Assembly: GCA_023150805.1 (NCBI GenBank)
Contig: JAKLKF010000024.1
Span: forward strand, 1-64,000
DNA: 64,000 nucleotides
Source of the DNA: Myxococcota bacterium
GTDB taxonomy: Bacteria > Myxococcota_A > UBA796 > UBA2385
Direction of reading: 5' to 3'
The notes beneath the pieces are model-generated. The model made no database searches, had not been told where the DNA came from, and was given only the letters and a program-made list of their open reading frames with translations. Made by a program: the position numbers and the translations under genes. Position 1 is the first letter of the stretch. The number at the start of each line of letters is the position of its first letter. Positions 6,919 through 59,211 of the stretch are shown in pieces.

Positions 6919-6956
6919 CCGAGGGGCGGGTGCTCCGAAGCGTGCATCCTGCACAG

Positions 6957-8471: not shown

Positions 8472-8486
8472 GCGCGGGGGCTCAGG
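8467..8486. terminator. Bidirectional hairpin between convergent radical SAM genes
   Basis: CCTGAGC-gcgggg-GCTCAGG, 7-bp perfect stem containing both stop codons. Confidence 0.5.
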
Positions 8487-9381
8487 CGGGCAGGTCGGTG
8501 CGCGTCCGCAGCGCACCCCAGCCGTGGCGCTCGGGGTACTCGCGCCAGGGGCCCTCGCAGCGGTCCGTCCAGGTGCAGGCCGCGCAGGGGGGGCCCTTGG
8601 CCTTGCCGTCGGCCAGGCGCGAGGCGCGGAAGTCGGGCACGACGCGGGTGGGATCGTCGATGCGGGTGGGCGGGATGCGGGCCTCGGAGAGGAAGCGCTC
8701 CAGGCCGGACAGCAGGCAGGCGGGCATGGCCTCGACCATGCAGGGCACGCCGGCCTCGATGCCGGGCACCAGGGCGGCGCGGACCCAGGGGGCGGCCTCG
8801 TCCAGGCGGGGCACGATCTCGTCGAAGGCGGCCCAGGCGGAGCCCAGCGGGTGGACCATGGCGAGCTGGTACTGGCTGACGTCCAGGGCGACCAGCAGCG
8901 CGGCCAGGGCGGGCAGTTCCCGCAGGTTCGGCCGGGCGACGACGCTGTTGGTCAGCACGCGCTGGCCGCGGGCGCGCAGGTTGCGGATGCCCTGGACGGT
9001 CTGCCGCCAGCTCCCCGGGGCCCGGGTCAGGGCGTCGTGGGTCTGCGGCGTGGCCCCGTGCAGGGCGGGGGAGAACTCGGTCACGCCGGCCTCGATCATC
9101 GCGTCGCAGAAGGCGGGTACGGCGAAGCGGCGGCCGTTGGACTGCAGCTGCACCTCCCGGTAGCCCAGGGCGCGGGCGTGTCGGACCAGCGCCGCCAGGT
9201 CGCGGCGGATGGTGACCTCGCCGCCGGTCAGGACCAGGCGGTCGCCGTGGGCGCGGTCGGCCTCCAGCGCGGCCATCAGCGCGGCCGTGTCGCGGTCGGG
9301 CTCGTGCAGGCGCCGGTCGCCCTGCACGCAGAAGCGACACCGGTTGTTGCACTGGAAGCCGGCCTTCAGGTCGATGCGCAT
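8482..9381 (-). CDS. Radical SAM protein
   Basis: CNNRCRFCVQGDRR, LTGGEVTIRRD, C-terminal PCAACTWTDRCEG. Confidence 0.86.
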   Translation of the reverse strand: MRIDLKAGFQCNNRCRFCVQGDRRLHEPDRDTAALMAALEADRAHGDRLVLTGGEVTIRRDLAALVRHARALGYREVQLQSNGRRFAVPAFCDAMIEAGVTEFSPALHGATPQTHDALTRAPGSWRQTVQGIRNLRARGQRVLTNSVVARPNLRELPALAALLVALDVSQYQLAMVHPLGSAWAAFDEIVPRLDEAAPWVRAALVPGIEAGVPCMVEAMPACLLSGLERFLSEARIPPTRIDDPTRVVPDFRASRLADGKAKGPPCAACTWTDRCEGPWREYPERHGWGALRTRTDLPA

Positions 9382-9441
9382 CGGCGCAGCCTGCGGGGCG
9401 GGGGCCGCGGGCGCCTCGGTCGTCCGACCGATCCGGGCGGT

Positions 9442-10026
9442 TCAGGCTCCGCCGGCCAGCACCTTGGACAGGAACAGGCGGCGGTCGGTGGTGACCGTGC
9501 CGTCGACGCGGCGCGCGGGCACCTCCATGTAGACGCCCATGTCCTCGAAGCCCATGTGCATGTACATCTCGTAGGCGCCCTTGCGCGAGGCGGTGGTGCG
9601 CAGCAGGGCGTGGGTGTAGCGCTGCGTGTCGACCAGGTGCAGGCGCAGGTCGACGAGCTGCTTGCCCAGCCCGCGGCCGCGGAAGGCGTCCTGGACGCCC
9701 AGCTCGGCCAGGTAGAAGACGTGGCGCGGTGGGACCAGGCCGCGCAGCGAGCGGGCGATGTCGGGGCGCGACAGCAGCGGCACGCCCACCCCGAAGGCGA
9801 CCACGCGGGCGTCCCCGCGCAGCACGAGCAGGGTGACGTGGTCGGGGGTGCGCAGGAAGCCGTCGAGGATGCCCAGGGCTTCGGAGGCGTAGAAGCGCTC
9901 GAAGTAGGGCGGCCCCGAGAAGATGTCCTGGTAGGCCCCGGCGAAGGAGGCGCGGTAGGGCGCGGCGTCGTCGGGGTCGTGGACCCGGACGATGCGGAGG
10001 CCGTCTTCTCTCTCGACCAGCGTCAT
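9442..10026 (-). CDS. GNAT-family N-acetyltransferase
   Basis: FYLAELGVQDAFRGRGLGKQLVDLRL (acetyl-CoA binding Q/RxxGxG/A), C-terminal YEMYMHMGFED. Confidence 0.82.
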   Translation of the reverse strand: MTLVEREDGLRIVRVHDPDDAAPYRASFAGAYQDIFSGPPYFERFYASEALGILDGFLRTPDHVTLLVLRGDARVVAFGVGVPLLSRPDIARSLRGLVPPRHVFYLAELGVQDAFRGRGLGKQLVDLRLHLVDTQRYTHALLRTTASRKGAYEMYMHMGFEDMGVYMEVPARRVDGTVTTDRRLFLSKVLAGGA

Positions 10027-10089
10027 GGCGCGCATCATGCCGGGGGGCGGGGGCCCTGGCAAGGCGCAGCCGAGGCCGCGCCCGCGGGC

Positions 10090-19296
<9,207 letters not shown>

Positions 19297-42545: not shown

Positions 42546-44216
42546 GTGTACAACGACTTCCTCATCCTCGGCGGCGCCGGCCTGGTCGGCCTGCAGGTCT
42601 GCCGTCACCTGGTCGAGCAGCTCCAGCCCAAGCGCATCGTCGTCGCCTCCCTGCTCCAGGACGAGGCGGTGGCCGCCTGCGCCGCGCTGCGGGCCGAGCT
42701 GGGCGACAAGATCTCCTTCGTGCCCGAGTGGGGCAACCTGTTCGTGCCCACCGACCTGGCCCAGCTCGCCCGCGGCGAGATCCTGGCCGACGCCGACCGG
42801 CGCCGCCGCCTGCTGGTCAGCCTGTACGAGGACTTCGACGCCGCCTACGACGGCAACCACCTGGTGCAGATGATCCGCCGCCACCGCCCCGAGGTGGTGG
42901 TCGACTGCGTGAACACGGCCACCGGCCTGTCCTACCAGGACGTGTTCGACGGCGCGGCCAAGGTCCGGGAGTGGATCGGCCCCGACGGCTTCGACCAGAA
43001 GGGCATCCCCGACCTGGAGGCCTTCCTGCTCTCCCAGGGCGCGCCCCAGATCATCCGCCACGTGCGCTTCGTGCACCGCGTCAGCACCGAGTGCCAGACC
43101 CGGGTCTACGTCAAGGTCGGTACCACCGGCACCGGCGGCATGGGGCTCAACATCCCCTACACCCACAGCGAGGACAAGCCCAGCAGCGTGCTCCTCGCCA
43201 AGAACGAGGCCGCCTTCGGCCACACCGGCCTGCTCTTCCTGCTGGCCCGCACCCCGCACGCCCCCATCGTCAAGGAGGTCAAGCCGGCCGCGATGATCGG
43301 CTACCGCGGCGTGCAGGTGAAGCTGGCCGCCGACAAGCACCGCAACAGCGAGCTGTTCGCCCCGGTCCAGGCCCCCCTGGACGGCAGCCTGGAGCTGCGC
43401 CAGGACGACGCCGGCTACGAGCGGGTCGGCAAGCTCCAGGTCCCCATCGTCGACACGGGCGAGAACGGCGTGTTCACCCGCGGCGAGTTCGCCGCCATCA
43501 CCGCCCTCGGCCAGATGGAGTTCATCACCCCCGAGGAGATCGCCCGCACCGTCGTGCACGAGATCCGCGGCGCCAACACCGGCCAGGACGTGATCTCGGC
43601 CATGGACGCCAGCGTGCTCAACCCCTCGTACAAGGCCGGCCTGCTGCGCCGCGCGGCGCTGGCCGACCTGGCCGACGTCGAGGCCGAGAGCGGCGTGCCC
43701 AGCGTGGCGCTCGGCAAGCTCGGCCCGCCCGAGCTGTCCAAGCTGCTCTTCGAGGCCCACCTGCTGCGGCACGTCTACGGCTCGCTCGAGGCCGCCGTCG
43801 CCGAGGGGCTGACCCCCCAGGTCATGTCGTCCGCACTCCAGGCCGCCCTGGAGCCGTCAGGCGTCGCCCGCACCGCGCCCTCCATCGGCATCCCCGTGCT
43901 GCTGCCCGACGGCCGCAGCATCCTGCGCGGCCCCCGCATCAACGTGCCCCAGGTCCTGGGCCACGCCACCGCCGTCCAGTGGAGCAGCCCCGCCGAGCTC
44001 GAGGGCTGGGTCAAGCGCGGCTGGGTCGACCTGCGCCCCGAGAACATGGCCACCTGGCAGGCCCGCTTCCGCACCATGCTGGCCAGCCGGGCGAAGCTGC
44101 GCACCGCCGGCTCGGCCGCCGCGAACATCCACGCCTGGTCCGCCGACCACTTCGAGATCGGCGAGGTCGTGGCCTGGATCTTCAACAACGAGCTGGAGGG
44201 GTACCGGATGAAGTAG
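42546..44216 (+). CDS. NAD(P)-binding Rossmann-fold (epimerase/saccharopine dehydrogenase-like) protein
   Basis: NDFLILGGAGLVGLQVCRHLVEQ; PEVVVDCVNTATG; GTG start. Confidence 0.8.
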   Translation: MYNDFLILGGAGLVGLQVCRHLVEQLQPKRIVVASLLQDEAVAACAALRAELGDKISFVPEWGNLFVPTDLAQLARGEILADADRRRRLLVSLYEDFDAAYDGNHLVQMIRRHRPEVVVDCVNTATGLSYQDVFDGAAKVREWIGPDGFDQKGIPDLEAFLLSQGAPQIIRHVRFVHRVSTECQTRVYVKVGTTGTGGMGLNIPYTHSEDKPSSVLLAKNEAAFGHTGLLFLLARTPHAPIVKEVKPAAMIGYRGVQVKLAADKHRNSELFAPVQAPLDGSLELRQDDAGYERVGKLQVPIVDTGENGVFTRGEFAAITALGQMEFITPEEIARTVVHEIRGANTGQDVISAMDASVLNPSYKAGLLRRAALADLADVEAESGVPSVALGKLGPPELSKLLFEAHLLRHVYGSLEAAVAEGLTPQVMSSALQAALEPSGVARTAPSIGIPVLLPDGRSILRGPRINVPQVLGHATAVQWSSPAELEGWVKRGWVDLRPENMATWQARFRTMLASRAKLRTAGSAAANIHAWSADHFEIGEVVAWIFNNELEGYRMK

Positions 44217-44261
44217 GGCGGGGTGGGCGGCGTGGGGCGACCCGCCGGAATCACTCGACGC

Positions 44262-45878
44262 CTACCCGGCATGGATCTGTGACTGCACATCGTCCCGGCA
44301 GTTGATCGCCACGACGCGCAGGCCGACCGCCTTCTCGTACCCGAGGACGCGGGCGCGGCCCGAGAGCCGCTCCACGACCTCTTTGAACGTGAGCCTCCTG
44401 TCGCCCTCCCTCCAGTGACTCTTCGTACCGGAATGGATCACCAAGAGGATGCCGTGGCGCGAGCATGGGTCGCGCAGGTACTGGCCTACGAGCTGCCTCT
44501 CCAGGGCGGCGTCGAGCTGGGGCACGGTCCATCTGTCGGCGATTTTGATCTCGATCCCGACGACCGCCGATGGGTGCGACGAGTGGAGGCGAACGTCTGG
44601 CTTCTTGCGCAGATCCAGCTCCTCTTCGCGCACAACAGAGCACCGCGCTGTGGTGAGCTGCAGATGGTTGGCGACGAACGCTTGTACGCCTGCCTCGTCG
44701 GATTGTCGTAGCAGGTTCCGGCACGAGAAGGGGCCCCTCTCGACGGTCCTGCGAAGGTCCTCCAGGCGGTCGAGGACGTACTCGAAGAAGCCCTCGGCGT
44801 CGGCGAAGTGCGCTTTCGGCACGTCCAGGAACTCCCGCGCTCCCCGAAGATCGAGGGGCGGCGCCTCAGCGTCGCGCTCGCACCGTTCGTGCGCCAGCCG
44901 CGCGAACCAGTCGCCGTGCGCAGCGGTCGCGGGGTCGACCGCCAGGGCCAGAAGCGCGCGGAACGCGTCCTCCCCCGGAACATTCGCGAGGCGGCCCACC
45001 AGGCCGGACCGGCTCCGCTCCGCATCGTCGCGGGGGCCCGGCGTGAAGACTTCTCCGCTGGGCCGGTGGACGTCCGCCGCGGGCGCCACGACGCGGTAGG
45101 TGGATCGTACGAGGTCGGCCAGCGCGGGCGTGTCGAGGCCCGATGGGGTCCAGTCGACCGCCGCAACGGCCTCGACGAGGGACTGCTGCCCGGCATGTCG
45201 ATCGGCGGCGTCCCGCAGGATCGAGGCCGCGGCCCCGGGGTCTTGTCCTGCGAGGAATTGCCACCACAATGACGACGCCGGGTCCCCGTCGAGCGAGGCG
45301 CGGGGGCGCGCGAGGGCAAGCAGGCGCTCGCGTTTCTCGGCATCGACCACCACGGCGGCGAGCGCCCGTTCGAGCGCTCGGGCGTCTGCGTTCGGACGCG
45401 CCTCGATCAACTGGAGGAGCATGGGCGTGGCCAGCCTGCGGACGCGTTCGTCGCGGTGTCCGAGGTTGTCGAGCACCGCGCGGTCGGGAGACGTACCGGT
45501 CCCGACGTACTGCGCCTCCAGGACAGGGGCGAGCACGCCAAGAACCGCCCCCGGCCGAGCCTCGGCGAGGGCCCCGAACCAGGACGGGTAGTCGTTGATC
45601 TCGCACAGCGCAAACGCCGTCGCCTGCGCCACCTCCTCCTCCGACAGGTCGCCGGGCGACAACCCGTCCGCGAACGCGATGTTCAGCCCGGTCAAGCCCA
45701 CGGGGACGAACCACTCGACCTCGTTCTGCTTGTCCCGCTCGTGTGGGAGCATCGGACGGAACCGCCTCCATGCCTGCTTGAGGCCCTCCCGCGCGGCCTC
45801 GGCGACCTCGTCGCCGAACGGGCCAGCGAGGGACCGCCAGTCCGAATGCCCCCACCTGCTGTGCCGGTGGTCCTCCAT
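44262..45878 (-). CDS. C-terminal portion of NACHT-like NTPase: helical region plus PD-(D/E)xK nuclease-like domain
   Basis: [49 protein letters not shown]...ExK arrangement. Same frame as 45960..48476; coding-like sequence continues upstream of its ATG to the TAG. Confidence 0.78.
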   Translation of the reverse strand: MEDHRHSRWGHSDWRSLAGPFGDEVAEAAREGLKQAWRRFRPMLPHERDKQNEVEWFVPVGLTGLNIAFADGLSPGDLSEEEVAQATAFALCEINDYPSWFGALAEARPGAVLGVLAPVLEAQYVGTGTSPDRAVLDNLGHRDERVRRLATPMLLQLIEARPNADARALERALAAVVVDAEKRERLLALARPRASLDGDPASSLWWQFLAGQDPGAAASILRDAADRHAGQQSLVEAVAAVDWTPSGLDTPALADLVRSTYRVVAPAADVHRPSGEVFTPGPRDDAERSRSGLVGRLANVPGEDAFRALLALAVDPATAAHGDWFARLAHERCERDAEAPPLDLRGAREFLDVPKAHFADAEGFFEYVLDRLEDLRRTVERGPFSCRNLLRQSDEAGVQAFVANHLQLTTARCSVVREEELDLRKKPDVRLHSSHPSAVVGIEIKIADRWTVPQLDAALERQLVGQYLRDPCSRHGILLVIHSGTKSHWREGDRRLTFKEVVERLSGRARVLGYEKAVGLRVVAINCRDDVQSQIHAG

Positions 45879-45959
45879 GCGCCCGACCAGGAACCGGAGC
45901 GCCCCGCCGTGGCTGCCGCGTCGTACCTCGCCGACCAGGGCGGTCAGTTCCTCGCGGTT

Positions 45960-48476
45960 CTAGCGCTCCCGGGCCGTGTGCTCGGCCTCGAGCTCGGCTG
46001 AGTGACGACGGCGCTCCTCCTCGTGGGGGTCCGGAGCCGCGCGGCGCTCACGCCGGCGGGCGACGGCCGCGGCGAGCTCCGGAAAGGCGGCGGCGGCCGC
46101 TTCCACTGTCTCCACTTCGTCGGCGCTCGCGCAGGCCATGCACGCGAGGACGAACCAGACCGCGCGCGCCTTGGCCGTCCGCGCCGCGAGGAGCTCCTCG
46201 ATCATCCAGATGGAGTCGCCCGGCCGCGGCCTCCAAAGGTCGTGTGGCTCCTCTCGAAAGGCCGCGTCGGGCCGCGTGAGCTCAATGGATGCGCGCCGGA
46301 CTCGCCTCCCGACGAGCCAGCGGAGCGTGGCCCGCCGGACCTCGCGGGCGGCCATCAGCTCGAAGACGCCCCGGTAGACTTCGCCGCGTGCGTCCGGAGC
46401 CTCATGGACGCGGGCGAGCGCCCACAGCCACGGGGCCCAGGCTTCCACCGTAGATCGGGCCGGAACTCCGTCGCGTAGCCGGCGTTCGAAGAGACCGCGG
46501 AGGACCGTCGCGAGCCGGACGGCCTGCGCGCCTGCGGCGCCCCGGCGCGTGGGGATGGTTCTTGCGCGACGAAGGAGCGCCGGGCCCACAATCGCCGCGA
46601 GCTCCTCGTGCCGGCGCGGGTCGTACTCGCGATCGAGGAGCCAGGTCCAGTCGTGGGCCTCGGACCGGGACGCGCGCGTGGCCGCCTTGGCCCAGGTCAA
46701 CATGGCCGCGCCGAGGTCCGCGGTGGTCATCGTCTCCGGGTAGAGCGCGTCTGCCGCCTCGAAGAGCACCTCGTTCACCGGACTCCGGCCATTGAGCACC
46801 ATGCGCACCACGCGCTCTCGCACGGCTGCGCCCCCCGCGGAAGCGGCAGCGCGCACGGCCAGCGCACGGAGCTCCGGCGAAGTCCCGCGGGCCGTGGCGA
46901 GCCGCAGGGCGTCCTCGGCGTTCCCTGCGAGCCGGCCGTGCCACACGAGCCGGAGCAACAACTCCGACCCGCGGCGCCCAGGGTGCCGCAGCCTCTCCCG
47001 GATGAGGTCGCAAAGCTCCGGGCACGCGAAGCGGGCCAGGTCCAGGTGGTCGGCCCCCTCCCGCCGCCACGGGTGGCGTTCCAGCTCCGTGAGGATGCGC
47101 GCGAGCGCACCCCCACGCTCGCCGGGCGGGACGGCCGCGGGGTCTCCGGCCTGCAGCAGGAGATGCGGGTCCGCCTCCAATAGCGCTCGGCGAAGGCCGG
47201 GGTCCCAGCCGGCCGCCCAGCCGGCGACGCCGCGCAGCGAAGGCGGGACCACTCGCCGGCCATAGCGTTCGCGCACGAGAAAGTCGGCGAGCGCGGAGCC
47301 GCCCGGCTGGCGCCCGAGCAGGTGGAAGAGGGCCATCGCGGCGAGGTACTCCTCCGTCGCCCGGTGGTGGACGCGCCGGGCTCCCGGGCCGTCGTCGACG
47401 AAGATCGCACGGTCGGTGAGTTCCACAAGCTCCCGCGGCGACATCCAGGCCAGCGCCGCGGACGGGTCCAGCGCGCCGTCCGCGGTCCCGGCGTCGGCCT
47501 GGGCGACGCGGACCCTGTGCTCGCCGCACAGGATGGCGACGAGGGCGAGCTCGCGGGCGCCCTTCGCGGCGTTCTCGGGGCTGAGCACGGTGTGCTTCCG
47601 CCGGGACGGGCCGTGCTCCTGCAGGCGGGCCGCGACGTTGTCCTCCATGAGCTGAGTGAGGGTCCCGATGCTGCCGCGGCGGTTCCACGAGGCGACGAGC
47701 CACGTGACATCGGCCGGACGCTCGATGAGCGCCCACGCGCCAGTCTGGCGGACCGCGTCGCGGAGCCGGGCGACATCCCTTGCGCCCTTCGACCGCGCCA
47801 GCTCGATCGCCTGTTCCTCGGAGAGCACGGCCATCCGGACGACACGGACCTCTGGAACTGCATCGGCGGCCGGGGCGACGCTCTGGCGGCGGCGCGCCGC
47901 GGCTGGTTCGGTGACCGAGGCGGGCGGGGCGTCGCCTTCGGCAGGAGGGGGCGGCTCCGGAGACTTGAAGTACCCGGCCAGCGCGGCGCGGTCCTCCTCC
48001 GTCCGCCACTCCGCGACGCGGCAGGTCAGCACTACCCGTACTCTGGGCCACTCCGCGTGAAGTTCCGTCGCGAGCCGATCGATTGCAGCTTCGAGCGTGC
48101 CGCTGGTGTTCCGGGCTTCGTCCAGCGAGTCCAACACGAACATGCATGCGGCGCCGGAGGCCCGCCACGCCTCGATCGCCGGACGCTCGTGCTGAGGCAC
48201 GAGCGGCGCGCCCGAGCGGCAGAGGTCGGACACCGTGCGGTAGACCGCATGGCCCCCCGCCGCCCGAATCGCTTCGACCTTCGCCTTGGCCTCGGTGGTT
48301 TTTCCGCAGCCGGTCTCGCCCAGTAGCACGACACACCTGGACCGCAGGAGCTCGTCCCAGCCCAGGGTCACGCGGTCGGCGTAGCTCCCGAGCATCCGCA
48401 CCGTCAGCGCAGAGATGTCCCGCGCGCCGAAGTCGACGAAGCGGCGGCCGAGGTCGATGTAGTCGTACCGTTCCAT
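45960..48476 (-). CDS. NACHT/STAND-like NTPase (N-terminal portion of a TAG-interrupted gene)
   Basis: Walker A VVLLGETGCGKTTEAK; Walker B-like CMFVLDSLDEARN (NACHT-type DxxDE); helical repeats follow; TAG at 45960-45962. Confidence 0.85.
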   Translation of the reverse strand: MERYDYIDLGRRFVDFGARDISALTVRMLGSYADRVTLGWDELLRSRCVVLLGETGCGKTTEAKAKVEAIRAAGGHAVYRTVSDLCRSGAPLVPQHERPAIEAWRASGAACMFVLDSLDEARNTSGTLEAAIDRLATELHAEWPRVRVVLTCRVAEWRTEEDRAALAGYFKSPEPPPPAEGDAPPASVTEPAAARRRQSVAPAADAVPEVRVVRMAVLSEEQAIELARSKGARDVARLRDAVRQTGAWALIERPADVTWLVASWNRRGSIGTLTQLMEDNVAARLQEHGPSRRKHTVLSPENAAKGARELALVAILCGEHRVRVAQADAGTADGALDPSAALAWMSPRELVELTDRAIFVDDGPGARRVHHRATEEYLAAMALFHLLGRQPGGSALADFLVRERYGRRVVPPSLRGVAGWAAGWDPGLRRALLEADPHLLLQAGDPAAVPPGERGGALARILTELERHPWRREGADHLDLARFACPELCDLIRERLRHPGRRGSELLLRLVWHGRLAGNAEDALRLATARGTSPELRALAVRAAASAGGAAVRERVVRMVLNGRSPVNEVLFEAADALYPETMTTADLGAAMLTWAKAATRASRSEAHDWTWLLDREYDPRRHEELAAIVGPALLRRARTIPTRRGAAGAQAVRLATVLRGLFERRLRDGVPARSTVEAWAPWLWALARVHEAPDARGEVYRGVFELMAAREVRRATLRWLVGRRVRRASIELTRPDAAFREEPHDLWRPRPGDSIWMIEELLAARTAKARAVWFVLACMACASADEVETVEAAAAAFPELAAAVARRRERRAAPDPHEEERRRHSAELEAEHTARER

Positions 48477-48484
48477 GCCTGTAC

Positions 48485-48514
48485 ACCGTATGCCCACGAC
48501 CCCAGCGGCGACAA
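48485..48514 (-). promoter_or_regulatory. Sigma70-like promoter of the NACHT-like gene
   Basis: On minus strand TTGTCG - 18 nt - TACGGT, 8 nt before ATG 48476. Confidence 0.5.
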
Positions 48515-48533
48515 ACCAACGCCTGGCCGCTCA

Positions 48534-48746
48534 TCACCACTGAGGCAGGACGACCAGAGGCGGCGCGGACATCAGCGGTCCCGGGTGGGTGAGGGGCATC
48601 GTCTGCACCAGCTCGACGACATCGAGGAAGAGGCCCGTCGACGTCGGGATGCTCTGCTCGACAGGCGAGAACGCCGGGTAGTCCATCGGAACGAGGTGGA
48701 GCTGGTGTTCTTCGCGTCGCAGCGACCCATGATCTACGCACGTCAA
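48534..48746 (-). CDS. Possible small ORF between the divergent NTPase genes
   Basis: SLRREEHQLHLVPMDYPAFSPVEQSIPTSTGLFLDVVELVQTMPLTHPGPLMSAPPLVVLPQW; high GC3 in most codons; start uncertain (TTG 48746 or ATG 48686). Confidence 0.3.
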   Translation of the reverse strand: MTCVDHGSLRREEHQLHLVPMDYPAFSPVEQSIPTSTGLFLDVVELVQTMPLTHPGPLMSAPPLVVLPQW

Positions 48747-48775
48747 TGTCGACGTGCGTCGAATTTGACGTGCGT
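48736..48775. promoter_or_regulatory. Repeated operator-like sites (one inverted, two direct copies of GACGTGCGT)
   Basis: ACGCACGTC-aatgtc-GACGTGCGT-cgaattt-GACGTGCGT. Confidence 0.7.
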
Positions 48776-48780
48776 CACGT

Positions 48781-48809
48781 TTGACTTTCTTTGGAGGCGG
48801 CGCTACACC
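48781..48809 (+). promoter_or_regulatory. Sigma70-like promoter of the dual AAA ATPase operon
   Basis: TTGACT - 17 nt - TACACC, 5 nt before ATG 48815. Confidence 0.6.
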
Positions 48810-48814
48810 GGGAC

Positions 48815-49948
48815 ATGTCTGGAGCGCCCATGATCGCCGACTCCCCTGTCCCCCGCCTGGACATCCTCCGTCAGCTCAAGGACCGCTTGCAGCGCGGCAG
48901 CGTGGTGCTCCATGGCCCCCGGCGCTTCGGCAAGAGCACCCTGGTGGGCCAGCTCGTGCAGGCCAGCCCACCGTCGATGTCGGTGCTGGCCCTCGACCTG
49001 GAGGGCATGCATCGAGACCCCGTCGACGAGCTGGCCCGCGCCCTGCGGACCGAGCTCCCCAGGTCCACCTGGGCCCGGGCCCTCGACCTGGGCCGCAGGT
49101 TCGATTCCCTGGAAGCAGCCGGCTTCGGCCTCTCGTTGAAACAGGGCGAGGTGCCGGCACCGTGGAGTCGCGTCGAGCAGCTCCTCCGAGACGCGGTGGC
49201 CGCGCTCGGCGAGAAGACGCTCGTGGTCGCGCTGGACGAAGTGCCCTGGTGGTTGGACGCGGTCAGGTCGACGCAGGGCGCCCCGGCTGCCCGGGCAGCG
49301 CTGGCCCAGCTCCGGCGCCTGCGCCAGCACCCCCAGCTTCGATCCCGCCTGCGAATGATCCTGACGGGCTCCATGGGGCTCTCGGGCCTCGCGGGAGAGC
49401 TGGGCGCCTCGGCCGAGCTCAATGACCTGGACGTGCTGGAGATGCCACCGATGGACCCTGAGGAGGGCCGCACACTGTTCGAAGTAGAGCTGCGGGCGGA
49501 CCAGAGGTGTGACCCGGAGGTCGCGGGGTACGCGGTCGCGATGGCAGGCGGCAGTCCGCATTGGATCAAGCTGCTGGCAGTGGAGTGTGGCGAGGCCCCC
49601 GCTCCCGATGTCGCCGCGGTGGATCGGGCCGTCGACCGCCTGCTCCAGCCTGCGCTGCGTCATCTCTTCGCCGACGAGGGCATGGAGCACTTCCGTCGGC
49701 GGCATCCCGCTCGGCTGGCCGTACTCCAGGCGATGTTGTCGGCGGTGGACGGCGCCGACCGTGGGGTCCCCCGCCAGGCGGCCTTCAACGCCGCCGTCCT
49801 CACGGACCCCGACCTTCGACAGACTGACGCGCGGGACTGCCTGTTCCTGCTCTACGACGCCTTTCTGCTCCGCGAGGACGGCCCCGAGGCCGTCGCCTGG
49901 GTCAACCCGATCTTCCGCCGCTGGTGGCGGCGCTACGGTGTCGCATGA
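48815..49948 (+). CDS. AAA/archaeal-ATPase-like P-loop ATPase
   Basis: VVLHGPRRFGKSTLVGQLV Walker A; TLVVALDEVPWWL Walker B; MILTGSMG sensor-like; PHWIKLLA. Confidence 0.86.
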   Translation: MSGAPMIADSPVPRLDILRQLKDRLQRGSVVLHGPRRFGKSTLVGQLVQASPPSMSVLALDLEGMHRDPVDELARALRTELPRSTWARALDLGRRFDSLEAAGFGLSLKQGEVPAPWSRVEQLLRDAVAALGEKTLVVALDEVPWWLDAVRSTQGAPAARAALAQLRRLRQHPQLRSRLRMILTGSMGLSGLAGELGASAELNDLDVLEMPPMDPEEGRTLFEVELRADQRCDPEVAGYAVAMAGGSPHWIKLLAVECGEAPAPDVAAVDRAVDRLLQPALRHLFADEGMEHFRRRHPARLAVLQAMLSAVDGADRGVPRQAAFNAAVLTDPDLRQTDARDCLFLLYDAFLLREDGPEAVAWVNPIFRRWWRRYGVA

Positions 49949-52248
49949 GCCCTCCCGATCCCGGCTCGCGGCCCGACCTGCTCGCGCTCGAGGCTCATGC
50001 CTTCGGTGACGTCGATGCGCTCCGCGACCCCGCGCAGCGGCCACCGCCGGCCCGACAGTACACCCCGGGGTCCGAGCCGCCGGCTGTGCTGGAGGCCCGC
50101 ACGGTCGGCCGCGACGAGGTCATCCGGGCGATGGACGAGGGCATCGCCCGCCTCCTCCGCGGTGAATCCCCGCACCACCTCTACCTGTTCGGACCCCGAG
50201 GCGTAGGGAAGTCCCACCTGCTGGCCCTGGGGCGGTCCCACGCGCAGCTCGCTGAGCCCCGTGGCCAGCTCCGGGTGCGGGTCATCCCAGAGGACATGGT
50301 CTCTCCTGCCCATGCGGAGGAACTCTGGGCTCGCATGGTCCCCGTGCACGATCTCCCGCCATGGATGCTCTGGGAGAGGACAGCCGAGGTCGAGGTGTCC
50401 ACGCCGACGGTCATCCTCCTCGATGGCCTCGACAAGCACCTGGGCGCGCTCTCCCCCGCGGAGCGCAAGGCGCTGCGGGCCCTCCTCCAGGCCCACCCGC
50501 GGGTCTGGATCGTCGGCGCGGGTGCCCGCCTCTCGTCCGTGTTCATCGAGCAGGACGAGGCCTTCTACGGTGGCTTTCGGGCCGTTCCCGTCGGCGGCCT
50601 GGCTGACGCGGACGCCGCGACCCTGCTCGAGCGACTGGTGGGAGACGATGCTCTCGCCCACCCCCGCTGGCAGGCACGCCGGGACGCGCTGGTGACCCTG
50701 GCCGGCGGGAATCCGCGCGCCCTGGTCGCCCTGGCCCAGGCCGTCGGCTCCGCGCCCGGCGAACTGGTGGCCACGCGCCTGCTCTCCGCGGTCGACGAGT
50801 TCACGCCGCACTACCAATTGCGCATGCGCGACCTGGCTCCGAATGAACAGCGCCTGATCGACCTGCTCACCACCTCGCCGCGCCTGCTTGGACCCTCCGA
50901 GGTCGCCTCCATCCTGGGCGGGGTTCCCGCGACCTGGTCCACGGCGGCCAACCGCCTGTCCGACGACGGAGTGTTGACGATCCAGCAGGAAGGCAAGTTC
51001 GCCCGCTACCGCATCACCGAGCCCTTGTTCCGCTACTGGCTCGAGTTCCGGACCGCTACGCCCGAGCGCACCCGCATCGCATGGCTGAGCCAGCTCCTCG
51101 AACGGGTCCTGGGGCCCGACGAGATGGTCTCCACCTGGCGCGAGAGCGACGACCCGGCCGTGCAGGACGCCGTCTTCTCGGCCATGCGGCGGAACCCGAG
51201 CGCGCGGCGCATTGCGTGGGCGGGCGCCCTGCCTGAACTGCAGGCCGCGGTGCGCGCGGGGGAGCCGACCGAGATCCAGCGGCACCTGGCCTCCGCGGTC
51301 AACCTCTGCCCGTCCGAGGTGGACGCCTGGGAATTGTTGGTGCTCCTCTCGCCCACGCCGAAGCTGGCGGCCCAGGTGGCTTCGGCCCTGGATGCCCACC
51401 GCTGTACCCACCTGGCGCAGCTCGCGCGCGCGCTGGCCGGCCAGGCAACGCCGCGGTCCGTCCTGAGTGCGCTGCTGACTGAGGGCCGAGGCGAGCTGGA
51501 ACGAATCGGCGTGTTTCAGCGGAACGTGGCCCTGGACCAGGCGCGCGTGCTCGATCAGGTCTTCACAGGCGCGGTCCTGCGCATCGATCCCCGCGGCCAG
51601 CCCTGGCGCCTGCGGCCGCATGAACGGACAGCGCTCGCCGCGGTTCCGTGGCTCCGCAGCCGCTTCTACCGACACGGCCGCCGGACGACCCACCCCCCGC
51701 TGTTGGACGAAGCCAACCTGCTCGCCGCGGCCCTGCACGGCGACGACGCCGACCTGCCCGACCTGCTGTGGACCGCCATGGTCCGGCGGCACCTTCGACT
51801 GGCGAATCGCATCGTCGAGCTGCTGGATGCGTCCACCCACCCACGGCTGCCCTGGTGCCCCTGGCCCGGTCGCCTGCTGGCGCTCGACGCGCAGGTGCTG
51901 CTCCGCGTTGCGATGCGCGCGAAGGGCCGTGAGCCACTGTTGTGGGCCGCTGCCTTTGAAGGTGTCGATGAGGTCGCGTTCGGCCACTGGGTGGAGTCCC
52001 TGAGGGTCACACGGCCTCCGGCACCCCCGCCCCGCCAGGCCGGCAGCTTCGAGCTAGCCCTGGCCCGCGTGGCCCGAGGCACGCCCGACCGCTACCTCGG
52101 ACTGCGCGCCGCGCTCGGCGATCTCTGGGCGCCGGTGTTCATCGGGGTCGACATCCTCGTCGCGCAGCTCGCCCAGGCTGAGAAGGGCCCGCTCCATCCC
52201 GAGCTCGCGCGCGTCGACCAGGCGCTTCGCTCGACCGACCGTCTGTAG
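49945..52248 (+). CDS. AAA/STAND-type ATPase with long C-terminal region
   Basis: LYLFGPRGVGKSHLLALG Walker A; PTVILLDGLDKHL Walker B; wHTH-like RLIDLLTTSPRLLGPSEVASILGG; ATGA overlap with 48815..49948. Confidence 0.86.
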   Translation: MSPPDPGSRPDLLALEAHAFGDVDALRDPAQRPPPARQYTPGSEPPAVLEARTVGRDEVIRAMDEGIARLLRGESPHHLYLFGPRGVGKSHLLALGRSHAQLAEPRGQLRVRVIPEDMVSPAHAEELWARMVPVHDLPPWMLWERTAEVEVSTPTVILLDGLDKHLGALSPAERKALRALLQAHPRVWIVGAGARLSSVFIEQDEAFYGGFRAVPVGGLADADAATLLERLVGDDALAHPRWQARRDALVTLAGGNPRALVALAQAVGSAPGELVATRLLSAVDEFTPHYQLRMRDLAPNEQRLIDLLTTSPRLLGPSEVASILGGVPATWSTAANRLSDDGVLTIQQEGKFARYRITEPLFRYWLEFRTATPERTRIAWLSQLLERVLGPDEMVSTWRESDDPAVQDAVFSAMRRNPSARRIAWAGALPELQAAVRAGEPTEIQRHLASAVNLCPSEVDAWELLVLLSPTPKLAAQVASALDAHRCTHLAQLARALAGQATPRSVLSALLTEGRGELERIGVFQRNVALDQARVLDQVFTGAVLRIDPRGQPWRLRPHERTALAAVPWLRSRFYRHGRRTTHPPLLDEANLLAAALHGDDADLPDLLWTAMVRRHLRLANRIVELLDASTHPRLPWCPWPGRLLALDAQVLLRVAMRAKGREPLLWAAAFEGVDEVAFGHWVESLRVTRPPAPPPRQAGSFELALARVARGTPDRYLGLRAALGDLWAPVFIGVDILVAQLAQAEKGPLHPELARVDQALRSTDRL

Positions 52249-52280
52249 GAGACACCTGGCGGTACGTCCCCGTGGTTCTC

Positions 52281-52412
52281 CAGGTCGACGCCGGCCATGG
52301 GCGGGTCGGCAAGCTCCAAGTGCCCATCTCATCCCCGAGCAGATCGCCCGCACGGTCGTCCACGAGGTTCAGGCGCGGCTGGGTCGATCGGCGGCCCGAG
52401 GGCGGGGTGGGC
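52281..52412 (+). pseudogene. Decayed, internally deleted duplicate of the 3' part of the 42546..44216 gene
   Basis: Three collinear blocks matching 43401-43448, about 43522-43566 and about 44011-44043, then a 14-bp identical agggcggggtgggc (44215-44228 = 52399-52412). Confidence 0.8.
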
Positions 52413-52426
52413 TACCCTGGAGGCGC

Positions 52427-53530
52427 ATGCACGACCCCATCCGCCGCGTCGCCTTCCACGGCTTCCGCTCCTTCCAGCACGCCACCGTCGAGCTGCGCGA
52501 CCTCAACGTGCTGATCGGCGTGAACGGTGCCGGCAAGTCCAACTTCATCGACGGCCTGATGCTGCTCCGCGACATCGCGGCCGGACGATTCCAGGAGTTC
52601 GTGGCGCAGCGCGTCGGGGCGCACCGAATCCTCCACCGCGGGCGTGTTGCCCCGGGCATGGGGGTCGAAGTTCGCAGCGACCGCGTGGACTACGTCGCGC
52701 AGCTCGGCGCCAGCGAGGTGGACCGGCTGTTCTTCCTGTCGGAGGGCTTCACCACCCCACCTGGGCGGGAGGGGCTTGCCCTGCACCACGACCCGCAGAG
52801 CGCGTTCAGCCGGCCCGGCCAGCGCGAGTCCGCGCTGGTCCACTACCAGGGGGTCGGCGCGGATGAGGTCGAGGCCTTCGCCGCACGCCTGCGAGGCATC
52901 CAGCGTTGGCACTTCGTGGACACGCGCGCACTGGGGGTCCTGCGCCAGGCGGCCGACCTCCACGACAACCGGGGCCTGGACCCGCATGGTGGCAACCTGG
53001 CTGCGTGGCTCTACCTGCTGAGGTCGCAACATCGGGGCGCCTTCGCGCAGGTGCAAGGTACATTGCGGCTGGTCGCGCCCTTCATCGCGGAGCTCGTGGT
53101 CGAGCCGCAGGCCCTGAATCCCCACAGCGTCGTCGTCCAGTGGCGCCAGGTCGGTCTGGAGGGCCTGTTCGACGTCGGACACCTCTCGGACGGCACCCTT
53201 CGGTTCCTGGCCCTCGCCTCGGTGCTCCTGCAGCCCGAGCCCCCCTCTCTGATTGTGCTCGACGAGCCGGAGCTGGGCCTGCACCCGCACGCGCTGCACG
53301 TGCTGGTCGAGCTGCTCCAGGACGCCGCGCGGCGCACGCAGGTCATCGTGGCCACCCAGTCCCGGCAGATCGTGGACCTCGTCGCGGCGGAGGATGTCAT
53401 CATCGCCCAGCGAGAGGGCGCGGGCACGACGCTGCGTCGGTTGGACACGGAGGGGCTGCGCCCCTGGCTGGACGAGTACAGCCAGGGCGAGCTGTGGGAG
53501 ATGAACGTGCTGAGCGGTGTGGGGGGGTAG
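52427..53530 (+). CDS. AAA_21/OLD-RecF-like ATPase
   Basis: GFRSFQHATVELRDLNVLIGVNGAGKSNFIDGL; LSDGTLRFLALASVLL signature; LIVLDEPELGLHPHAL Walker B; VIVATQS. Confidence 0.9.
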   Translation: MHDPIRRVAFHGFRSFQHATVELRDLNVLIGVNGAGKSNFIDGLMLLRDIAAGRFQEFVAQRVGAHRILHRGRVAPGMGVEVRSDRVDYVAQLGASEVDRLFFLSEGFTTPPGREGLALHHDPQSAFSRPGQRESALVHYQGVGADEVEAFAARLRGIQRWHFVDTRALGVLRQAADLHDNRGLDPHGGNLAAWLYLLRSQHRGAFAQVQGTLRLVAPFIAELVVEPQALNPHSVVVQWRQVGLEGLFDVGHLSDGTLRFLALASVLLQPEPPSLIVLDEPELGLHPHALHVLVELLQDAARRTQVIVATQSRQIVDLVAAEDVIIAQREGAGTTLRRLDTEGLRPWLDEYSQGELWEMNVLSGVGG

Positions 53531-53587: not shown

Positions 53588-54406
53588 CTACGCCTGCGGC
53601 ACCGCGACCTGCGGGTCGCCCGCGGCGCCGACCTGGCGGATCTCCGCGATGAAGCGCTCGCGGGCGCCGTCATCGTCGGTGTCCACCACCTCGTGGGCGA
53701 AGGGCGCCAGCGTCTGCCGCGCCTCGTCCCGCTGATCGGGGTGTCCACCTGCCGTCACGTAGGCGATCAGCCGACCTTGCCGGCCGTTCTCGGCCCGCTC
53801 GACCGCGTACCGGTAGGCGCCGATGCGCTGGGCGATCTCCTTGAGGTCGGCATCGAAGCGCGGACGCGACGGCACCACCGGCTCCATGAGCAGCACCTGG
53901 TCGCCGCCCGGCACCCAGTGGCTCAGCTCAGGCAGGCCGGCAGCGTGCCGCCCCAACCAGCCCGCTCCGTCGGTACCCGGTCGGAAGGTCTTGCGGACGA
54001 AGCGCTCCACGCGCCAGGTCTCGAAGAACCGGTAGCCCAGGCTGGCACGCTGGGCGCTTCGTGGCTCCGCCACCCGCCGCTGTGGTGACCGAGCGGGGTT
54101 CAGTAGCGCCTCCACCCAGCCGAATGGGTCGAGCACGGCATCGGGGACCATGACCACCTCGCCCAGGCTGGCGTAGGGGCCGAAGGCAGGGGGCAGGGCC
54201 TCGACGCTGCCGATCCCGTCGAGGCGGGCGTGCAGGCGCTGGACGGCGAGCTGGAGCCCGCGATCGCCGAGACAGGCCAGGGGGAGGTGGTGGACCTTCG
54301 CGACGCGCACCTGGCCGTTGCGGCCCACGACCACCGCACCCAGCGGCATGCGGGCGCCGGTGAACGGGTCCGGCGTGATGTGCACGAGGCGGTAGCTGGC
54401 GATCAC
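53588..54406 (-). CDS. Hypothetical protein (possibly DUF3037-like)
   Basis: MIASYRLVHITPDPFTGARMPLGAVVVGRNGQVRVAKV; family call tentative; GTG start. Confidence 0.6.
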   Translation of the reverse strand: MIASYRLVHITPDPFTGARMPLGAVVVGRNGQVRVAKVHHLPLACLGDRGLQLAVQRLHARLDGIGSVEALPPAFGPYASLGEVVMVPDAVLDPFGWVEALLNPARSPQRRVAEPRSAQRASLGYRFFETWRVERFVRKTFRPGTDGAGWLGRHAAGLPELSHWVPGGDQVLLMEPVVPSRPRFDADLKEIAQRIGAYRYAVERAENGRQGRLIAYVTAGGHPDQRDEARQTLAPFAHEVVDTDDDGARERFIAEIRQVGAAGDPQVAVPQA

Positions 54407-54581
54407 CGATGGCCTCCGAGGGCTTCAAGATGGCGGGCGAGGTGGGCGACCTCGTGGGGCACGTACTCCACCGCCCCCCGCAGGGCCCGCCCCTCCCTGC
54501 CCCCCCTCCCCTGGGCTACCCTGCCCGCTCGCCCCCCCTCCCCGCTCCTGCCCCCTCCCCCCCCCTCGCCCGGGCTGTCCG

Positions 54582-55193
54582 GTGGCCGACGCCGCGCGCC
54601 GCGCCGACATCGCCGCCGCCCTCGCCGACCCGCTGGTGCAGCAGGGCAGGCTGGAGGCCCTGGTCGCCGAGCTGCTGCGCGCGGGCAAGGCGCCGGTGCT
54701 GGCGGCGGGCCTGGTGCCGCTGGCCGAGCTGGGGGTGGTGCGCGTGGGCCTGTTCGGCGAGGCCGGCGGGGTGGCGGCCCCCGGCTTCGAGGGCTGGCTG
54801 CCGACGGCCGTGGTCGACGAGGTGCGGGCGCGGCACGCGGGGCTGGTGGCCGGGTGCTGGGACGGGGGCCTGGAGGCCGGCTGGAGCCTGGCCTGGACCG
54901 ACGCGGCGGCCGAGGGGCTGGTCGCGTGGACGGCCCAGGGGGGGCGGCTGCGGCTGGCCGACGGGGTGGTGGACCTGCTGGACGACGGCCGCTGGACGGT
55001 GATCCCGGCGGAGCGGGTGGGGCGGGTGTCGCTCCAGGGCCTGCCCGAGCAGCGGGCGCTGCTGCGCCTGCACACGACGGACGGCCGCTTCGTGGCGCTG
55101 CGGGCGGGGCGGGCGCTGGGGGCGGGCCTGCTGGTGGAGCGCCTGGCGCGGGCGCTGGGGGTCGAGGCGGGGGGCAGCCGGTGGGACCGCTGA
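54582..55193 (+). CDS. Hypothetical protein
   Basis: Complete ORF with coding-like composition; GTG start. Confidence 0.66.
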   Translation: MADAARRADIAAALADPLVQQGRLEALVAELLRAGKAPVLAAGLVPLAELGVVRVGLFGEAGGVAAPGFEGWLPTAVVDEVRARHAGLVAGCWDGGLEAGWSLAWTDAAAEGLVAWTAQGGRLRLADGVVDLLDDGRWTVIPAERVGRVSLQGLPEQRALLRLHTTDGRFVALRAGRALGAGLLVERLARALGVEAGGSRWDR

Positions 55194-55290
55194 GGCCGGG
55201 GGCGACGGGGCCCGCGACGGCAGGTCGCGAGGGCGGCGGCCGCGCCCGCCCAGGGTGTTACCGCTGTGCGCGACTCCCGGACCCAGGACC

Positions 55291-56238
55291 ATGAAGCTCC
55301 AGCCCATCCTCGATCGCCGCGTGGTCCTGGTCTCGGGCAAGGGAGGGGTGGGCCGCACCACGGTCACCGCCGCGCTGGCGCGGGCCGCGGCCGCCGCCGG
55401 CAAGCGCGTGCTGGTCGCCGAGATCGAGGAGCCGGCGACCCAGGCCCAGTCGACCCTGGCGCGCATGTTCGGCCGCGAGGTGCTGCCGGTGCGGCCGACC
55501 CTGGTGGCGCCGGGGGTGCACGGCTGCATGCTGGCCACCGAGGAAGGCACCGAGCAGTTCCTGGGCGACGTCTTCCGGGTGCAGACCCTGGCGCGCCTGG
55601 CCCTGCGCAACGCGGCCCTGCGGCGGCTGCTGCACGCCGGGCCCAGCTTCCACGAGATGGGCATCTTCTACCAGCTGCTGCACCTGGTCCGGCAGGAGCT
55701 GCCCGACGGCCGGCCGCGCTGGGACTTCCTGGTGCTGGACATGCCGGCGACGGGCCACACGCTGGCGCTGACGGCCCTGCCCGACATCCTGCTGCGCCTG
55801 GTGCGCCGCGGGCCCATCGCCGCCGCCCTGCGCGAGGGCCAGGGCTGGCTGAACGACGCCCGCACCGGCTGCGCCGTCGTCGTCACCATCCCCGAGCCCC
55901 TGCCGGTGACCGAGTCGCTGGAGCTGGTCGAGGGCCTGCAGGCCACCCGGATGCACGTGGCCGCGATGGTGGTGAACAAGGTGCCCGAGGACCCCTTCTC
56001 GGCCGAGGAGCGGGCCGCCCTGGACGAGCTGCTGCCCCCGGGCCCGCTCTACGGCAAGGAGGAGCTGGCCCGCCTGGAGCGCACCCGCGTCTCGCTGGAA
56101 CGCCTGCGGGGCGCGGCCCGCGCGCCGGTGCTGGCCGTGCCGCAGTTCTTGGCCGACGGCCAGGGCGCGGTCGAGGCCATGACCGCCTGGTTCCAGGCCG
56201 AGGAGGGCCTGGGCCTGTCGGGTGGAGGGGCGAGATGA
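55291..56238 (+). CDS. ArsA/Get3-like P-loop ATPase A
   Basis: VVLVSGKGGVGRTTVTAALA deviant Walker A; DFLVLDMPATGHTLAL. Confidence 0.9.
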   Translation: MKLQPILDRRVVLVSGKGGVGRTTVTAALARAAAAAGKRVLVAEIEEPATQAQSTLARMFGREVLPVRPTLVAPGVHGCMLATEEGTEQFLGDVFRVQTLARLALRNAALRRLLHAGPSFHEMGIFYQLLHLVRQELPDGRPRWDFLVLDMPATGHTLALTALPDILLRLVRRGPIAAALREGQGWLNDARTGCAVVVTIPEPLPVTESLELVEGLQATRMHVAAMVVNKVPEDPFSAEERAALDELLPPGPLYGKEELARLERTRVSLERLRGAARAPVLAVPQFLADGQGAVEAMTAWFQAEEGLGLSGGGAR

Positions 56239-57651: not shown

Positions 57652-57678
57652 TCCGCAGGCCCCCGGCCGCGCTCAGCC
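57646..57678. terminator. Bidirectional inverted repeat with both stop codons in its arms
   Basis: GGCTGA - 21 nt - TCAGCC. Confidence 0.35.
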
Positions 57679-59211
57679 CGCCGCCCGCCACGGCGCCCGG
57701 TCCGTCGGCGCCACGGCCTCCAGCGCCTGCCGCCAGGCCGCGAAGCGCCCGCCCGCCGCCACCGCGCGGGCCACGGCCAGGCCCGCCTCGGGGCCTCCCT
57801 GGGCCAGCTCGGCCTCGACCCAGGCCCAGCGGGCGCTGGTGGCCCGGACCTCGGCCCGGGCGCCCTTCAGGCCGGCCCGCAGCCGTTCCAGCCGCGCCTC
57901 GACGGTCCGCGTGCCGGCGAAGGTGGCCGTGTCCAGCGGCGTGTTGCGCTTGGGCACGAAGGGCGCGATGCCCAGCGCGACGGGGTGCACCGCGGCCAGC
58001 GCCCGCGTGCTGTCGATCAGCTCGGCGAGGTCGTCGTCCTGCTCGTCGGGCACGCCGAGCATCATGTAGACCTTGAGCACCTGGTAGCCGTGCTCCGCGG
58101 CGGCCTCGGCGCAGGCCAGCAGGTGGGCCTGGGTCGTGCCCTTGGCCATCTGCCGGCGCAGGCGCTGGCTGGCGGCGTCGCTGGCCACGGTCAGGGTGCG
58201 GTAGCCGCCGGCCCGCAGCAGGCGGGCGATCTCCGGCTTGTGGGCGATCCGGTCGGCCCGCAGCGAGGAGACGCCGACCCCGCGCCCGCTGTCGACCAGG
58301 GCCTGCAGCAGGGCGGGCAGCCCGGGGTGGTCGGAGATGGCGGCGCCGACCAGGCCGACCCGGCGGGCCTGCTCGGGCACCAGCGACAGCAGGGCGTCGG
58401 GGCTGACCAGCCGCATGCCGCCGCTGCTGGTGCGGCCGTCGCCGGTGGTCGACCGCCGCATCACGCAGAAGGTGCACTGGCGGTGGCAGCCGCGCTCGCC
58501 CTCCACCAGGAACATGTCGGACAGCTCGGCCTCGGGCGCCAGGATGGGGCCGCGGGCCGGCAGGTGCGTGTCGTCGGCGCGCGCGATGGCCGGCAGGTCG
58601 ACCCCGTGGCGCTCGGGCACGTAGCCGCCGGGCAGGGCGCAGACCCGGTCCAGCCAGGCCTGGCGCGACTCCTCGACGGCGCCCTCCATCGCCTCGACCA
58701 CGGTGTCGTCGGCCTCGCCCAGCAGCATGGCGTCGACGAAGGGGGCGGCGGGCAGAGGGTTGCTGAAGGTCAGCGGGCCGCCCAGCAGCACGCGCGGGTG
58801 GTCGGGGCCCCGGTCCTCGCGCAGCGGCGGCACGCCCGCCAGCTCCAGGACCTGGACCAGGCCGGCCAGCTCCAGCTCGTAGGCCAGCGAGATCCCCAGC
58901 GCCGGGAAGTCGCCGACCGGCGTGCCCGTCTCGTAGGTGCGCAGGACCCCGCCCTGGCGGCGGAAGGCCTCGACGTCGTCGGGCAGGAAGGCGCGCTCGG
59001 CGCTGATGCCCGCCTGGCGCAGGCGCTCCAGCACCCACTGGAAGCCCAGGCTGGACATTCCGGCCCGGTAGGGGCTCGGGTAGACCAGGGCGACCCGCGG
59101 CCCGCCGACCACGAAGCGCCCGCCGCGCTCCTGGGCCAGGCGGCGGCGCGCGTCGTCCTCGGGGCGCGGGGCGCGCGACGGGGGGCGGGTCGGTGGGCGG
59201 GGGCGAGGCAC
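57673..59211 (-). CDS. B12-binding-domain-type radical SAM protein
   Basis: VALVYPSPYRAGMSSLGFQWV N-terminal domain; GERGCHRQCTFCVMRR (CxxxCxxC); YQVLKVYMMLGVPDE. Confidence 0.9.
   Translation of the reverse strand: MPRPRPPTRPPSRAPRPEDDARRRLAQERGGRFVVGGPRVALVYPSPYRAGMSSLGFQWVLERLRQAGISAERAFLPDDVEAFRRQGGVLRTYETGTPVGDFPALGISLAYELELAGLVQVLELAGVPPLREDRGPDHPRVLLGGPLTFSNPLPAAPFVDAMLLGEADDTVVEAMEGAVEESRQAWLDRVCALPGGYVPERHGVDLPAIARADDTHLPARGPILAPEAELSDMFLVEGERGCHRQCTFCVMRRSTTGDGRTSSGGMRLVSPDALLSLVPEQARRVGLVGAAISDHPGLPALLQALVDSGRGVGVSSLRADRIAHKPEIARLLRAGGYRTLTVASDAASQRLRRQMAKGTTQAHLLACAEAAAEHGYQVLKVYMMLGVPDEQDDDLAELIDSTRALAAVHPVALGIAPFVPKRNTPLDTATFAGTRTVEARLERLRAGLKGARAEVRATSARWAWVEAELAQGGPEAGLAVARAVAAGGRFAAWRQALEAVAPTDRAPWRAAG

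Follow-up and report, generated by a model that had tools for sequence, protein, structure and literature searches.

A decayed gene end between two modules of a probable defence-type island in a Myxococcota genome

The window (the whole 64,000-nucleotide stretch of DNA analysed here, from a Myxococcota bacterium) carries an insert of about 10.3 kb, from 44229 to roughly 54.5 kb, at the 3' end of a resident gene (Table 1). The corresponding site is empty in relatives, the codon composition of the insert is foreign, and a decayed copy of the 3' end of the resident gene lies between two modules, here called A and B. We consider it likely that this is a horizontally acquired defence-type island that arose in at least two steps, through integrase-free accretion, a single homologous crossover and later decay of the redundant 3' end. 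The gain of modules by integrase-free defence islands is seldom visible in sequence; here, the decayed gene end marks the seam of two acquisitions.

Table 1. Coordinates of the resident gene, the insert and its flank in the window
Feature	Position	Strand	Remarks
Resident (host) gene, intact, 556 aa	42546..44216	+	Rossmann-type N-terminus; 3' half duplicated at 52280-52412
14-bp repeat AGGGCGGGGTGGGC, proximal copy	44215..44228	+	Exact match to 52399-52412
HyoA-like NACHT/STAND gene (module A), one 1411-codon frame	44262..48497	-	Single in-frame TAG, codon 846 at 45960-45962
ATPase 1 of two-gene cassette (module A), 385 aa	48791..49948	+	AAA_14/16/22-like, below gathering cut-offs
ATPase 2 of cassette (module A), 774 aa	49924..52248	+	AAA_16/Orc-Cdc6-like; 25-bp overlap with ATPase 1
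Decayed copy of the 3' half of the resident gene (remnant)	52280..52412	+	Four blocks joined across deletions
12-bp direct repeat TGGGCTACCCTG, left copy	52408..52419	+	Left end of module B
AAA_21/SMC-like ATPase (module B)	52427..53530	+	Best PADLOC match HEC-01A, E 4e-103; GC3 0.908
272-aa protein (module B)	53588..54406	-	GC3 0.901; 6 further genomes of the order have homologues
HipA-like kinase remnant (module B), last ~25 residues, AVEYVPHEVAHLARHLEALGGHR and stop	54404..54482	-	Rest of kinase missing
12-bp direct repeat TGGGCTACCCTG, right copy	54512..54523	+	Next to where the ancestral flank presumably resumes
Ancestral right flank: 203-aa gene and first ArsA/Get3-type ATPase	54582..56238	+	Adjoin the resident gene in relatives

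Extent and composition of the insert

The limits of the insert are drawn from three relatives, in which the orthologue of the resident gene directly adjoins the genes that begin in the window at 54582 (the 203-aa gene) and 55255 (ArsA-type). In G001, a genome of the same genus, the ArsA-type ATPase pair follows the gene within about 70 bp (locus L031, gene-ArsA-ArsA). In G007, of the same family, the 203-aa gene comes first and then the ATPase pair (L033, gene-p203-ArsA-ArsA), while in G002, also of the same genus, the 203-aa gene reaches the contig end (L032, gene-p203). An earlier sequence-only reading of this DNA had proposed an island here, and had named an empty site and a codon-usage profile among the checks. 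The empty site exists in G001, G002 and G007, and the codon composition is atypical across the whole insert (GC3 0.86-0.91) and differs between the modules: GC3 is 0.863-0.874 in module A and 0.901-0.908 in module B, compared with 0.993 in the resident gene, 0.995 and 0.966 in the two genes that follow the insert, and mostly 0.94-0.995 in the flanking genes.

Absence from the orthologous site and atypical composition both characterise a genomic island. A mobility gene of its own, which is not obligatory for an island, was not found: no integrase or transposase family was recognised among the ORFs scanned between 44 and 54 kb, and the window contains no tRNA. The alternative that this gene order is an ancestral block is refuted by the empty sites, and none of the island's genes has a match in the relatives' regions at the same position.

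The sequence-only reading placed the insertion at the 3' end of the resident gene, with duplication of that end, and this part stands. Its right-hand boundary does not. Foreign DNA was thought to end with the remnant, at 52412, but the empty sites and GC3 carry it on to about 54.5 kb, with some 2.1 kb of module B beyond the remnant before the ancestral flank resumes. Because the insert continues this far, the remnant is interior to it, an internal seam between two foreign modules of different GC3. The flanks were joined and aligned to the relatives, and the intergenic sequence proved too diverged for the right edge to be placed to the base.

The surroundings show other features. In G001, a few kb past the empty site, two low-GC3 genes (0.82 and 0.78; 941 and 494 aa) separate the second ArsA-type ATPase from the conserved gene that comes next, which corresponds to window positions 57673-59211 (L031, G001:C117, reverse complement 6395-10704); the window has only about 0.4 kb at that place. 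The neighbourhood may accept insertions repeatedly. Elsewhere in the window, an open frame on the minus strand (10090-19296) is very long, at 3068 aa, and has a GC3 of 0.986.

The duplicated gene end and its decay

Orthologues of the resident gene are present in 41 of the 57 relatives searched (a count that includes this genome), the others sharing 53-81% amino acid identity with it. Its protein has no curated Pfam family, and a search of solved structures returned no useful match.

When 52240-52430 was compared with 42546-44260 by blastn at word size 7, four collinear plus-strand matches joined 52280-52412 to the region of the resident gene. These pair 43400-43448 with 52280-52328 (88%, E 4e-14), 43525-43562 with 52329-52366 (89%, E 8e-11), 44008-44042 with 52366-52400 (86%, E 1e-7) and 44215-44228 with 52399-52412 (100% over 14 bp). 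The last identity comprises the final two bases of the stop codon and 12 bp of non-coding flank. Overall identity is about 89%, and the blocks abut or share one or two bases, with no filler between them. The three blocks and the terminal 14-bp identity had been noticed in the sequence-only reading, with coordinates correct to within a few bases.

Since the window is 75% GC, spurious matches are common in it, and the similarity might in principle be due to chance or to a conserved domain common to unrelated genes. The blocks were therefore chained by a local alignment in which long gaps are nearly free, with 500 dinucleotide-preserving shuffles and the other 191-bp tiles of the window as controls. 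The chained score was 148, against a maximum of 40 among the shuffles and 54 among the tiles, which rules out chance similarity. Four ordered, abutting blocks that include non-coding flank also speak against this explanation, and we regard its probability as negligible. The pairwise alignment that had been suggested as a check of the duplication is thus significant under both controls.

The source of the copy appears to be close at hand. In a search of the genome itself, only the resident gene gave a multi-block match to the remnant, and no third copy of the gene end was found. The residues GKLQV are common to the remnant and the resident gene and are absent from the nearest orthologues. Together, these observations argue for a copy from the same or a very close lineage.

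Within 134 aligned bases, the remnant carries 15 substitutions (11.2% divergence), eight of which change an amino acid. Four of these eight fall on residues that all, or 29, of 30 orthologues have in common: one Y is replaced by H, the TPEE sequence shows T to I and E to Q, and DLR shows L to R. Such changes would not be expected in a functional orthologue, and because they affect constrained residues we read the remnant as a decaying, unconstrained copy. The ratio of synonymous to nonsynonymous changes was rejected as proof of decay: it is 7:8 in the remnant and 141:151 for the G001 orthologue, and so no different from orthologue comparisons. That the distal copy decayed by deletions, as had been proposed, is borne out by about 76, 445 and 173 bp missing between successive blocks. 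Identical bases on the two sides of a breakpoint (AG at the third junction, CGAG near the second) are consistent with small deletions that arose through slippage or end joining, but are too short to serve as proof. Divergence along the intact gene shows no step at 43400 such as an imported 3' half might have left. Part of the 11% divergence of the remnant could predate integration.

Gene content of the two modules

The ~8.2 kb up to the remnant had been described as holding only P-loop NTPases, which is nearly right in content. Two of the minus-strand ORFs (45960-48497 and 44262-45878), however, are a single HyoA-like NACHT gene broken by a TAG. This follows from three observations: both ORFs match the HyoA model NF058534 of NCBIfam (the N-terminal half at E 5e-134 over positions 1-830, the C-terminal half at E 2e-111 over positions 880-1411), the frame is open apart from the one TAG, and the homologue in G011 is uninterrupted, with 70% identity over 1402 aa. 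The C-terminal half finds its match in the HyoA and EruA models only within their own C-terminal halves.

The match to HyoA is collinear and nearly full-length (1411 of 1430 model positions), with a NACHT-type N-terminus. It differs from the curated family in that the whole frame reaches 838 bits, below the cut-off of 1200 bits, and in that the full-length frame is interrupted here; hence, we call the gene only HyoA-like. HyoA matches occur in nine of 284 genomes from the phylum, and none but that of the present genome contains an internal stop. A scan of the genome collection for HyoA homologues yielded only G011 again, and in plasmid records the HyoA-like protein and ATPase 2 have no more than distant, partial homologues. 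In the literature library searched, no paper names the HyoA antiphage protein.

Because the premature stop separates the NACHT half from the C-terminal half, the gene is probably inactive at present, unless the halves work as two proteins. The amber codon could also be an assembly or sequencing error in this 398-contig genome. The C-terminus holds a motif conserved with G011, KPD...GIEIK, which may be read as a putative PD-(D/E)XK-like motif. The AlphaFold model of this terminus is poor (pLDDT 50) and its PDB matches are not significant; a search of solved structures with the C-terminal half was of no use either.

The decayed gene end doubles as a local neutral clock for the genes of module A. 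Frames of module A were diverged by 11.2% without constraint in 300 simulation runs, and stops were counted. The expectation is about 13 stops for the HyoA frame, where no run gave fewer than 6, and about 3 for ATPase 1 and 6 for ATPase 2. One is observed in the HyoA frame and none in either ATPase, a total of 1 against about 22. Since stops are so far below the expectation for decay, selection has maintained the genes of module A through most of the time elapsed since the copying, with the caveat that part of the reference divergence may predate integration. The break in the HyoA-like gene is then recent, provided that the stop is real.

ATPases 1 and 2 lack a Pfam family above cut-off and a convincing PADLOC match, and a search of solved structures with ATPase 2 gave nothing useful. 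Their homologues lie side by side in several other genomes of the order (G002, G025, G028, G013, G022 and G044), often alone among housekeeping genes. Several such pairs are surrounded by ordinary genes (CTP synthase, TldD, an aminoacyl-tRNA synthetase), and the pair is therefore not tied to defence islands. A diverged second pair is encoded in the same genome, on another contig (G000:C78:8383-8991, L127). Just downstream of the closest homologue of the pair, in G002, is an IS66-family transposase (L114, G002:C148:4742-6427), a possible vehicle for the cassette. The pair was kept intact here while the neighbouring gene copy decayed, and it is the part of the island most likely to hold something undescribed. 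That it constitutes an undescribed two-gene defence or mobile cassette is possible, if rather doubtful.

Module B begins with an ATPase that matches HEC-01A, a PADLOC candidate defence ATPase, over its whole length. HEC-01 consists of an A gene followed by a B gene; no HEC-01B partner follows 52427-53530, and the next gene is instead a convergent one for an unrelated 272-aa protein, which has neither a database family nor a PADLOC match. Just upstream of the 272-aa gene, on the same strand, are the last residues of a protein that we name a HipA-like kinase from our reading of its sequence and not from a database match. In G003 (L108, G003:C168), a longer kinase-like frame ends in RHAPAIVARYMNDLGARP and a stop directly before the 272-aa homologue, which indicates that module B has itself been trimmed. 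In G033 (L107, G033:C68), the kinase looks cut as in the window, and there is a TAG in the region of the 272-aa homologue.

The direct repeat TGGGCTACCCTG brackets module B. The whole 7.8-Mb genome has only 15 occurrences of its 11-bp core. When 9031 random 120-bp pieces of the window were compared with the seam, 31 had any 11-mer in common with it. The repeat was noticed post hoc and resembles a promoter element; as a bracket it is suggestive, and it could be a shared promoter-like element.

Proposed origin and known systems

In the first step of the account that we favour, module B, or part of it, would already have been downstream of the resident gene. The incoming DNA would have consisted of module A attached to the 3' end of that gene (a segment of at least about 830 bp, with 12 bp of flank). 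A single homologous crossover of the Campbell type within the gene, or else a tandem duplication equivalent to it, would then produce the order gene-A-(5'-truncated gene)-B, in which the left-hand gene is complete and the copy that separates A from B is redundant. No longer under selection, this copy would have gained point mutations and three deletions, so that 133 bp remain. Sister genomes carrying A alone or B alone were not found, and for this reason we infer the order of events and the single crossover.

Islands integrate at the 3' ends of tRNA or other genes, and many integrases insert just past a stop codon. The remnant might thus be the attR copy of a single element that integrated site-specifically and whose integrase was later lost, given that the duplicated stretch reaches just beyond the stop codon and leaves the gene intact. 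Several features do not agree with this. The duplicated segment spans about 830 bp (43400-44228), which we judge too long for an attachment core; neither an integrase nor an excisionase was found among the ORFs scanned between 44 and 54 kb, and the window lacks a tRNA; and the remnant lies inside the insert, where foreign DNA continues past it. An integrase-type island, with its short attachment core and integrase, fits less well than the single-crossover account and is unlikely here.

An identical final arrangement would result if the cell had duplicated the 3' end of the gene in tandem by itself and module A had then been inserted between the copies by illegitimate recombination. Transformation-stimulated partial duplications, as described in Streptococcus pneumoniae (PMC3784515), provide a precedent. 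However, two independent events at one place would be required and none of the data prefer this course, which we regard as improbable.

Module A probably acts in phage defence, a prediction made from homology: its main gene encodes a HyoA-type NACHT ATPase, which would be expected to switch on its C-terminal effector upon infection. The defence-type character first proposed for the insert is upheld by the HyoA-like and HEC-01A-like genes.

Both mobility-gene-less defence clusters and recombination that leaves partial duplications are already known, and the present locus is a new, clear and well-preserved example. Uptake-linked recombination yields partial duplications of resident DNA in the merodiploids generated by transformation, as it would in the account proposed here, although those described are repeat-mediated and span ~100-900 kb (PMC3784515), whereas the duplication in the island is sub-kilobase, old and decayed. 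The core defence hotspots cDHS1 and cDHS2 of Pseudomonas aeruginosa likewise hold defence genes between conserved genes, at a GC content below that of the chromosome, and in many sites no mobility gene is detectable (29% for cDHS1, 47% for cDHS2; PMC10250203). For the present island, by contrast, only one occupied and three empty sites have been seen, too few to show recurrent use, and the two modules meet at a decayed gene end.
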